From Phaeocystidibacter luteus (lineage in GTDB: Bacteria; Bacteroidota; Bacteroidia; Flavobacteriales; Schleiferiaceae), in assembly GCF_008933115.1 (NCBI RefSeq), contig NZ_WBVO01000013.1, positions 1 through 64,000 on the forward strand: 64,000 nt of DNA, in the 5' to 3' direction. The notes under the pieces were generated by a model. That model worked only from the letters and a program-made list of their open reading frames with translations. It was not told where the DNA came from and ran no database searches. Shown one piece after another: positions 38,892-41,248 of this stretch. The position numbers and the translations under genes are program-made. Position 1 is the stretch's first letter. Every line of letters begins with the position of its first letter.

Positions 38892-39143
38892 ATGAAACAA
38901 GGAATTCACCCAGAGAACTATCGTATGGTTTGCTTCAAGGACATGGGTACTGAAGATTACTTCATCACTCGTTCTTGCGCGAACACGAAAGACACTATCG
39001 AAATTGAAGGAACAGAGTATCCTTTGGTGAAGATGGAAATTTCTGCTTACTCACACCCATTCTACACTGGTAAGGTGAAGATGATCGACACCGCAGGTCG
39101 TGTGGACAAGTTCCGCAACCGATACGCGAAGTTCAAGAAGTAA
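38892..39143 (+). CDS. rpmE: 50S ribosomal protein L31, type B
   Basis: The 83-residue L31 starts [20 protein letters not shown] and ends in the family motif [21 protein letters not shown]. The zinc-binding CxxC pair of type A L31 is missing, and the length is that of the type B, zinc-independent form. A strong terminator follows directly. It is the last gene before the repeat region. Confidence 0.96.
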
Positions 39144-39168
39144 GCGAATTTCACTTACAGCATATGAG

Positions 39169-39199
39169 AATCCCGACGGAAACGTTGGGATTTTTTTTT
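39169..39199 (+). terminator. rpmE terminator
   Basis: The stem AATCCCGACG (39169-39178), loop GAAA and CGTTGGGATT (39183-39192), with one G-U pair, is followed by T through 39199. It is a classic intrinsic terminator 26 bp past the rpmE stop. Confidence 0.93.
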
Positions 39200-39241
39200 G
39201 GATGGAGGGAGGACCTCACACAGAGACACGGAGGGCACGGA

Positions 39242-39550
39242 GGTCTCTCGCGGAGAAAAGGAGCTGTACGTGGTGGAGAGAGTTCGCAGGGGATGTGCGT
39301 GGTGGGTTTCTCCCGCCGGTGGTCGAGCAAGCCGCAAAACCGCAACATTAAAATCATCGGAGTGCGTATAAATCGCAAAACAGACTTGGGATTGCCTACA
39401 TGTGTTATGAAATGGATAGCTGCACGAGAATCCATGATGACAGGCATGTTGCTTTAGCGCATGCCGGGCGTGGGACGAGGGTTTTAATCCCGCCGCCAAT
39501 CCCCGGAGGGGATAATTCTATTAGCCTCGTGGCTTTAGCCCGAGGTTGAA
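39242..39550. repeat. repeat copy A with four REP-like hairpins
   Basis: The right half carries small palindromes in a row: GGCATG/CATGCC with a GC-TTTA-GC loop (39443-39465), GGG/CCC around TTTTAAT (39479-39491), ATCCCC-GGA-GGGGAT (39499-39513), and CCTCG-T-GGC-TTTA-GCC-CGAGG (39525-39545). TTTA loops recur. The layout resembles REP/BIME-type elements mobilised by RAYT transposases, but none is present here. Confidence 0.75.
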
Positions 39551-39562
39551 TGAGCGCACGGT

Positions 39563-39869
39563 GGTCTCTCGCAGAGATGAAGAGGAGTACGTGGTGGAGA
39601 GAGTTCGCAGGGGATGTGCGTGGTGGGTTTCTCCCGCCGGTGGTCGAGCAAGCCGCAAAACCGCAACATTAAAATCATCGGAGTGCGTATAAATCGCAAA
39701 ACAGACGTAGGGATTGCCTACATGTGTTATGAAATGGATAGCTGCACGAGAATCCATAATGACAGGCATGTTGCTTTAGCGCATGCCGGGCGTGGGACGA
39801 GGGTTTTAATCCCGCCGCCAATCCCCGGAGGGGATAATTCTATAAGCCTCTTGGCTTTAGCCCGAGATT
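39563..39869. repeat. repeat copy B
   Basis: This copy is a direct repeat of 39242-39550 at an offset of 321-322 bp. A stretch of about 115 bp is identical, and the rest differs at only a few positions, including one inserted G. The hairpins of copy A are kept except that the last has a weakened outer stem. The near identity suggests a recent tandem duplication. Confidence 0.85.
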
Positions 39870-39889
39870 AATTAGGGGTATGTGGTCTT

Positions 39890-39990
39890 GTGTCATGAAA
39901 TGGATAGCTGCACGAAAATCCATAATGATAAGCACGGTGCTTTAGCGCGTGCCGGGCATTGGATCGGATGGGGGTTATAATCCCTCCGCC
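39890..39990. repeat. diverged partial repeat copy C
   Basis: This copy lines up with the middle of copies A and B (ATGAAATGGATAGCTGCACG is shared) but has many changes. The hairpin at 39932-39952 is GCACG-GT-GC-TTTA-GC-G-CGTGC where A and B have GCATG and CATGC. One T-A pair has become C-G on both sides while the GC-TTTA-GC core is unchanged. Confidence 0.7.
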
Positions 39991-40032
39991 TGAAGGGCAT
40001 GAAAGCCTATGTTTTATTCGCATTCAATCCCG

Positions 40033-40040
40033 TAACTTTA
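40033..40040 (+). promoter_or_regulatory. weak promoter of the GlmU-like gene
   Basis: TAACTTTA fits TAnnTTTG at seven of eight positions, 26 nt before the ATG at 40067. No clear -33 element is present, so this is tentative. Confidence 0.35.
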
Positions 40041-40066
40041 TCCCGAACAACTAACGATAGCGTCCT

Positions 40067-41248
40067 ATGAACCTCATTCTGTTCGACGGTCCCGAAAGAA
40101 ATCAATTGCTTCCACTAACCTTTACTCGTCCCGTTGCGGATATGAGAGTGGGTATTCTAACCATCAAGGAAAAGTGGGAGAAGAGGCTAGAGGCGAAGGC
40201 TTCATACATGACGCAGTCGTATTTGTCATCCCTATTCCCAGTTCATTTAGCGAACAATAACCTCCTGGTCAACGGATCGGTTTGTCCAGATATGAGGTTG
40301 CTCGCCAAAGTGATCGAGCTGAAGGAAGGTGAAGGTCTGTTTTCTGGTGACGTTCTAATCGCCGCCTATCTTGAAAAAGGTCGTGTTGCCGATGTCCTTT
40401 CACCTGAGAATCTCACACGAATCGAATACTCCCAGCCCATTACGCAAATGGCGAAACCTTGGGATATTTTTTCCAAGAATGGCAGTGAGCTCGAACGCGA
40501 TTTCAATTTCCTCACAGAAGGGCGTACCTCCGCAGAGATTTCATCTACCAATACGGTCATTGGCGACAAAGTCTTTCTCGAGCCAGGTGCTAAGGTTGAA
40601 GCGTCCGTTCTAAATTCTACATCAGGCCCAATTTACATCGGCAAAGAAGCAGAAGTGATGGAAGGATCTTTAGTGAGAGGCGGACTAGCGCTCTGCGAGC
40701 ATGCCACCCTCAAACTCGGCGCAAAGATTTATGGTCCAACCACAATCGGTCCTCATTCCAAAGTTGGCGGCGAAGTAAGCAACTCCGTCATCTTTGGTTA
40801 TTCGAACAAAGGTCATGATGGATTCCTCGGTAACTCTGTTCTAGGAGAATGGTGTAATCTAGGTGCTGATACCAACAATAGCAATCTCAAGAATAACTAT
40901 GATGAGGTAAAGCTGTGGAACTATGGACGCGGCGGCTTCGATAAAACCGGTCTGCAATTCTGCGGACTCATCATGGGTGATCATAGCAAGTGTGGCATTA
41001 ATACCATGTTCAACACCGGAACTGTGGTAGGTGTAAGCGCGAACATTTTCGGCAGCGGATTCCCAAGAAACTTCGTTCCTAGTTTCGCTTGGGGCGGAGC
41101 CTCTGGTTTTATGGAGTATCGAGTTGATAAAGCCATGGAAACCATGAAACTCGTTATGGCCAGAAGAAACAAAGCCCTCACCGAAGAGTGGCAGGTGGTC
41201 ATTGAACACATCTACAACGAAACAGCTCAGTATCGCAATTTCAAATAA
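40067..41248 (+). CDS. GlmU-like putative sugar nucleotidyltransferase
   Basis: The 393-residue protein has an N-terminal region of the putative sugar-nucleotidyltransferase type (LILFDGPERNQLLPLTFTRPVADMRVG). The C-terminal half is a left-handed beta-helix of hexapeptide repeats (about residues 165-330). The classic pyrophosphorylase signature GxGTRM is missing, so it is not a standard GlmU. It is probably an enzyme of nucleotide-sugar or cell-wall precursor metabolism, activity unproven. Confidence 0.85.
   Translation: MNLILFDGPERNQLLPLTFTRPVADMRVGILTIKEKWEKRLEAKASYMTQSYLSSLFPVHLANNNLLVNGSVCPDMRLLAKVIELKEGEGLFSGDVLIAAYLEKGRVADVLSPENLTRIEYSQPITQMAKPWDIFSKNGSELERDFNFLTEGRTSAEISSTNTVIGDKVFLEPGAKVEASVLNSTSGPIYIGKEAEVMEGSLVRGGLALCEHATLKLGAKIYGPTTIGPHSKVGGEVSNSVIFGYSNKGHDGFLGNSVLGEWCNLGADTNNSNLKNNYDEVKLWNYGRGGFDKTGLQFCGLIMGDHSKCGINTMFNTGTVVGVSANIFGSGFPRNFVPSFAWGGASGFMEYRVDKAMETMKLVMARRNKALTEEWQVVIEHIYNETAQYRNFK

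Follow-up and report, generated by a model that had tools for sequence, protein, structure and literature searches.

A tandem array of REP-type hairpins in Phaeocystidibacter luteus, with IS200-like Y1 transposases as candidate partners

A 64,000-nucleotide stretch of the Phaeocystidibacter luteus genome (the window; part of contig C5 in an assembly of 3.21 Mb and 27 contigs) contains a repeat array that is probably, at odds of roughly three in four, a mosaic BIME-like cluster of REP-type hairpins that HuH/Y1 transposases of the IS200-like subclass 1.2, encoded in the same genome, have spread. The proposed system is REP/BIME-like with a transposase of an unexpected class, which, judging from the sequences, would recognize and move the hairpins; that it works like a REPtron is well supported by its anatomy. 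The array occupies the gap between two genes and is composed of the following features:

38892–39143, + strand: upstream neighbor ORF, which we take to be rpmE2, coding for type B ribosomal protein L31
39219–40012, no strand assigned: lineage-specific repeat array (ends approximate) between rpmE2 and the downstream gene
39231–39552, + strand: repeat unit A, 322 bp
39443–39465, + strand: hairpin 1 of A, type IV (GGCATG, bulged T, TGC-TTTA-GCG, CATGCC)
39524–39546, + strand: last hairpin of A, type III (GCCTCG, bulged T, GGC-TTTA-GCC, CGAGGT)
39553–39874, + strand: repeat unit B
39765–39787, + strand: hairpin 1 of B, type IV
39846–39868, + strand: last hairpin of B, type III, two stem pairs broken
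39889–39990, + strand: unit C, diverged and partial; 75 bp of it (39889–39963) are 88% identical to unit B
39931–39953, + strand: hairpin of C, type I (AGCACG, bulged G, TGC-TTTA-GCG, CGTGCC), first pair broken
40067–41248, + strand: downstream neighbor ORF of 393 aa, presumably a nucleotidyltransferase-like protein

Tandem Repeats Finder, run on the whole window, reports a single array (39231–39866, period 322, 95% matches). Units A and B are identical at 305 of 323 aligned columns across the tandem pair 39231–39874, and unit C lacks the last (type III) hairpin. The initial annotation had described two near-identical copies and a diverged third, as found here, with a unit length of 306 bp that proves about 16 bp too short; it had also called the gap gene-free, and the interval 39143–40067 indeed holds only short overlapping ORFs of 82–114 aa on both strands. 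The 8-mer GCTTTAGC, the core of the hairpins, is present six times in the window, five of them within the array, against a chance mean of 1.54, and none of 100 shuffles reaches six. The predicted fold of a 150-nt part of unit A is better than that of all 200 shuffles (z −3.2), and for the matching 128 nt of unit C 80 of 200 shuffles fold equally well (z −0.2). Another component of the mosaic unit, CACAGAGRCACRGAGG, lies at 39219–39234 and at 11 other places in the genome, 12 occurrences in all. This repeat, distinct from the others, is found in 6 of 198 genomes of the phylum, P. luteus included, and one of those six carries it as 8-bp units in tandem.

Comparison with related genomes indicates that the array is specific to this lineage. 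The rpmE2 gene was located in all nine genomes searched (P. luteus included) and adjoins the 393-aa gene in five of the eight others; in the remaining three, the 393-aa gene was not found in the stretch beside rpmE2. The gap between the two genes measures 923 bp in P. luteus, 104 and 206 bp in two members of the same genus (G001 and G002, respectively), and 78, 96, and 123 bp in three members of the family. Gaps of 78–206 bp in five genomes are too short to hold the array, and it was therefore inserted in the P. luteus lineage.

The hairpins themselves are dispersed throughout the genome. A genome-wide search, which the initial annotation had proposed, yields 116 BLAST matches to 39231–40000, the array itself counted, and the core GGCTTTAGCC has 70 sites versus 13 for its reversed control. 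The type I 23-mer, from which the copy C hairpin differs by one mismatch, has 72 copies at no more than two mismatches; its reversed control has none, and none is present at the same threshold in 59 relatives, two of them congeners. Hairpin structure was analyzed at 163 GCTTTAGC sites in 36 stretches of the genome, namely the window and 35 others picked because they contain such hairpin matches or a transposase, with the register of the 39443–39465 hairpin fixed for all sites. The shared plan is a paired outer stem, one bulged 5' base, and NGC-TTTA-GCN', in which two G-C pairs close the TTTA loop and usually one more pair lies between the bulge and the core. At 133 of the 163 sites the stem runs for 5 bp or more without interruption, with exactly one extra base in the 5' arm at 132 of these, whereas shuffled flanks give about 17 such stems per set at scattered offsets. 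Over 123 distinct sites, 85.2% of stem cells are paired in the fixed register, compared with 61.8% (largest value 65.9%) after the 3' arms are re-dealt among sites and 27–44% in nine registers of other asymmetry, and six distinct 6-bp stems pair perfectly. These hairpins are mostly extragenic: 131 of 137 strong-stem sites fall outside ORFs of at least 150 aa, whereas of 7000 positions drawn at random from those stretches 4682 fall inside them.

Several features of these dispersed copies vary. Of 65 type I copies, 32 or more have NTAG before the stem, a count taken among the 12 commonest feet, and GTAG is not general. BIMEs and REPINs are characterized by inverted pairs of hairpins; here orientation is direct in the window array and in type I/IV–type III pairs elsewhere in the genome, and inverted in the two transposase-bearing arrays described below. 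A further family with the stem CCACG/CGTGG forms sets of two or three direct copies 44–45 bp apart at several places (C6:59376–64488, C24:79536–79806, and C1:793804–793849). One hairpin, C12:95094–95116, combines a type I 5' arm with a type IV 3' arm and has one broken pair; it may have arisen by recombination between two families. Hairpins are also found near the ends of contigs C1, C2, C7, C21, C23, and C26; the assembly may thus be interrupted where such arrays lie, and the true copy numbers could be higher.

The feature that first drew attention to this locus is a two-sided base pair change, T39447-A39461 in copy A and C39935-G39949 in copy C, and it is present in the sequence as the initial annotation stated. 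Types I (GGCACG) and IV (GGCATG) differ by exactly this pair, and both occur at many places in the genome. The change between A/B and C is thus best described, from the distribution of the two types, as a difference between two dispersed families rather than as a mutation within the array. Uncompensated changes are present alongside it: at the base of the same stem in copy C, A39931 faces C39953, and two more lie in the final, type III hairpin of copy B (C39847/A39867 and T39851/C39863). When hairpins are assigned to the nearest stem at no more than three mismatches, types I, III, and IV comprise 65, 36, and 20 copies, respectively, and among their 71 stem departures 42 break the pair, 17 are one-sided and keep it, and 12 are two-sided and keep it; the last may be members of other families placed in these types. 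The fold is therefore conserved between families, in keeping with recognition by a protein, and single copies appear to decay after insertion, largely without compensation. Such a pattern is the behavior of mobile-element copies and as such is no demonstration of selection on the window array. The earlier proposal that compensation points to selection on the folded structure thus has support between families but not inside them. The two observations that the initial annotation had set against itself, a unit confined to this locus and copies elsewhere that are all uncompensated, are both absent from this genome.

A search with PF01797 reveals three Y1 (IS200-like) transposase genes in the genome:

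C1:16766–17110: Y1 transposase gene within an array of inverted hairpins with the stems GGCATG and GGTCA
C11:6444–6785: Y1 transposase gene within an array in which type I hairpins on one strand alternate with ACCTCC hairpins on the other
C23:163292–163630: Y1 transposase gene surrounded by other repeated hairpins that, by eye, lack the GCTTTAGC core

Two of the three genes thus sit inside GCTTTAGC hairpin arrays, and these, with the many mostly extragenic copies, bear out the REP/BIME nature that had been suspected from the window alone. The hairpins around the C1 gene share their outer stem with copies A and B, and within 1 kb of the C11 gene the type I 23-mer is found three times without a mismatch and five times with one. 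The C11-array hairpins have CCT or AAT before the stem, unlike most dispersed copies. The end of the C1 transposase ORF falls inside an array hairpin, which supplies its last codons (L064:2640–2670). Around the third gene (C23:160500–166500) the repeats are CCCGGGGTTTCAAACCCCGGG-like and GGCCCCAGCGGGGCC-like, and this gene with its hairpins is perhaps a separate REP system.

The remark in the initial annotation that no RAYT transposase is near is correct for the window, and the three Y1 genes of the genome are of the IS200 class rather than classical RAYTs. All three proteins exceed the cut-off of the NCBIfam IS200/IS605 transposase model, and the PDB matches of the transposases are IS200-type transposases. 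Membership in the classical RAYT family was considered and rejected, as the Y..NP motif is absent and the cut-off of 80 for the NCBIfam REP_Tyr_transpos model (NF047646) is missed (33 bits, no match, and 30 bits). The C1 protein has the motif YVKNQRNHH, and the C11 protein has YVRDQWCKH, which deviates from Y---Q--HH. The C11 protein is encoded by one copy at 100% identity; the next protein in the genome is that of C1 (40%), and the best in the relatives is at 35%. Compared with genome contigs, it matches 15 loci at 28–39% identity, and its closest named relatives are Bacteroidota. We infer a link between the C11 transposase and the type I hairpins from their co-location in one array and their joint presence in a single genome.

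Homologues in other genomes provide evidence that such hairpins accompany these transposases more widely. A profile (A1) built from 12 relatives finds a match in 171 of 395 genomes of the phylum (E 1e-15) and in 12 of 88 genomes of the family (1e-10). Out of a larger total of matches, 130 loci were gathered (search returns, the three P. luteus genes, and 40 picked down the listing regardless of their flanks), and the flanks of the 110 non-duplicate loci were examined. Sixty-one loci score at least 160, a dividing line set after the scores had been seen, and 59 remain when the two P. luteus genes in this group are excluded. Among all 8-mers in the ±300-nt flanks of these 59, GCTTTAGC ranks first; it is present beside 49 of them, against a background of 0.12 per 600 nt, and beside only 3 of 44 loci scoring 80–160. 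Either GCTTTAGC or the TTCA-loop variant GCTTCAGC is present beside 53 of the 59, the variant beside 26. With the profile seeds and P. luteus removed, 41 of 49 high-scoring loci have the core and 8 have no TTTA core. The Y---Q--HH motif is found in 58 of the 59 high-scoring loci and in 42 of the 44 lower ones.

A tree of 108 proteins supports the association independently of the score line: the core label needs 12 changes, compared with a mean of 36.2 when shuffled, and none of 500 shuffles is as low. One branch of 54 rows (SH-aLRT 93) includes 48 with the core, and many forks in the tree lack resolution. The C11 and C1 proteins fall outside this main hairpin-bearing branch, on long branches, and one of the six rows beside them (Cyanobacteria, Chloroflexi, and others) has the core. 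Among 156 flank hairpins outside P. luteus a 5' bulge was called in seven; no general bulge rule emerged for the other genomes, and the one-base rule describes the hairpins of P. luteus. Beside the homologues, the foot AT[TA]G is present upstream in 37 of 103 cases versus 13 of 103 at the mirrored position, and GTAG in 1 of 103.

Dispersed GGCTTTAGCC sites were also counted in 27 genomes with and 31 without a homologue, a grouping of our own in which at most 10 candidates per genome were scored and some homologues may be missed. The raw counts differ (medians 22 and 9, p 0.0004; p 0.0007 with P. luteus dropped), whereas no difference appears when sites are taken relative to the reversed control (p 0.23), and the proposal that homologue-bearing genomes carry more dispersed GGCTTTAGCC was dropped. 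Four genomes (G265, G029, G016, and G018) have many GGCTTTAGCC sites and no C11/C1 homologue detected; here the enzyme may have been lost or missed, or the hairpin may be otherwise used.

Other explanations were weighed against transposase-driven spread. IS200/IS605 ends sit on one strand, whereas 26 of the 35 loci flanked by hairpins left and right have an inverted nearest pair (24 of one arrangement and 2 of the opposite one). This argues against the hairpins being the ends of ordinary IS200/IS605 insertion sequences or of small derivatives of these, as do the presence of each of the three transposases as a single gene beside dozens of hairpins and the hairpin arrays that flank genes on both sides. 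Such an origin is unlikely, even with same-strand hairpins at the other 9 of 35 loci, three proteins above the IS200/IS605 cut-off, and the subterminal hairpins that, in the accessible text of PMC6006769, make up IS200 ends. A role as RNA, in which the hairpins would be terminators or mRNA-stabilizing stem-loops 3' of rpmE2 and other genes under selection on the transcript, would account for the stem covariation between families, the G-T pairs present in the stems, and the position of the array 3' of a gene; the same paper describes effects that known REPs can have on the stability of mRNA and on termination. We nevertheless regard it as quite improbable. A T-run hairpin (seen by eye) lies between rpmE2 and the array, an Rfam scan of the window gives no match at the gathering threshold, and the congeners have the gene without the array. 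Moreover, the hairpins are found in either orientation and surround transposase genes as tandem arrays, and the 42 pair-breaking departures out of 71 do not fit selection on a transcript.

It is extremely unlikely that the array is merely a tandem duplication of intergenic sequence with chance hairpins, or an assembly artefact. Long tandem copies and several arrays at contig ends are what such an origin might leave, but the window array is internal to its contig, the 72 type I copies face none in the control, the 8-mer enrichment recurs in independent genomes, and stem pairing of 85.2% versus 61.8% after re-dealing contradicts it.

Under the preferred reading of REP-type hairpins spread by their own transposases, the enzyme would recognize the hairpin in the single-stranded state, probably on the template of the lagging strand, by means of the TTTA loop and the bulge, would nick beside the hairpin foot, and would then move or copy the hairpin. 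Tandem units would multiply by unequal recombination or slippage, and the stem would change with a change of family, together with its transposase. This mechanism would cover the hairpins, and the rest of the 322-bp unit falls outside the explanation.

The proposed system closely resembles the REP/BIME elements with TnpA_REP (RAYT) known as REPtrons in E. coli, Stenotrophomonas, and Marinomonas: these likewise consist of short imperfect palindromes in mosaic arrays, with many mostly extragenic copies, several hairpin families per genome, and a single-copy Y1 transposase gene embedded among such hairpins. As expected of REP elements, which are palindromes of about 20–40 nt, the hairpins here are 23-nt palindromes in high copy number, extragenic, and with their own Y1 gene in arrays. 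The differences are that REPtron enzymes are class 2 with Y..NP, versus Y---Q here, and that no general GTAG foot is present here, where REP elements have a conserved 5' tetranucleotide (GTAG/GTGG). The H. influenzae REP GTAGGGTGGGCTTyAGCCCACC has the same core, GGGC-TTTA/TTCA-GCCC, and its two loop variants are those found beside the homologues here; it differs in belonging to a RAYT of that paper's set and in its GTAG foot (Nunvar 2010, PMC2817692, accessible part). In the same part, these REPs contain GGGCTTTAGCCC and GGGCTTCAGCCC and are also listed with GGGCTTcAGCCC and GGGCTTtAGCCC. Compared with IS200/IS605 elements such as IS608 and ISDra2, the proteins are of the same family by sequence and the hairpins likewise have unpaired bases, but here the hairpins are mostly inverted and in arrays, and the transposases are single-copy. 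The available portion of PMC8266576 reports that, within the TTTA loop, T, T, and A are the bases selected by a TnpA_REP of Marinomonas, that unpaired stem bases are required in the E. coli REP, and that an unpaired T is contacted in IS608.

Among the closest described groups is TnpA_Y1 subclass 1.2, with which the Y---Q--HH motif is shared; the portion available to us describes it as a low-copy group of Bacteroidetes and Cyanobacteria that has no REPs and, in general, no terminal hairpins (Quentin et al. 2018, PMC6006769). Many members here differ from that description in being flanked by GC-TTYA-GC hairpins. On inspection by eye, seven rows of alignment A1 have a C-terminal extension, which the C11 and C1 proteins lack. 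In the accessible parts of the papers cited, the partners of REPs are Y1 proteins of class 2 and, rarely, class 3, and a literature search that covered few subscription journals found no link between such hairpins and subclass 1.2.

On balance, we lean somewhat toward a broader reading in which the IS200-like subclass 1.2 Y1 group, across the phylum of the window (Bacteroidota) and in one or more cyanobacterial cases, forms a second line of REP mobilizers beside the class 2 RAYTs, recognizing a GC-TTYA-GC loop, with hairpins that have exploded into BIME-like arrays in some genomes. The GC-TTYA-GC hairpin agrees with the loop rule (T, T, any, A) determined for a gammaproteobacterial TnpA_REP. 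Subclass 1.2 had no known DNA partner in the papers cited, as far as their accessible text goes, and the conserved hairpin offers a testable substrate. If true, this would represent either an extant intermediate linking IS200/IS605 elements to REPtrons or convergence upon a single loop. It bears on the origin of REP systems from elements of the IS200 type and suggests a single loop rule shared by distant enzymes.
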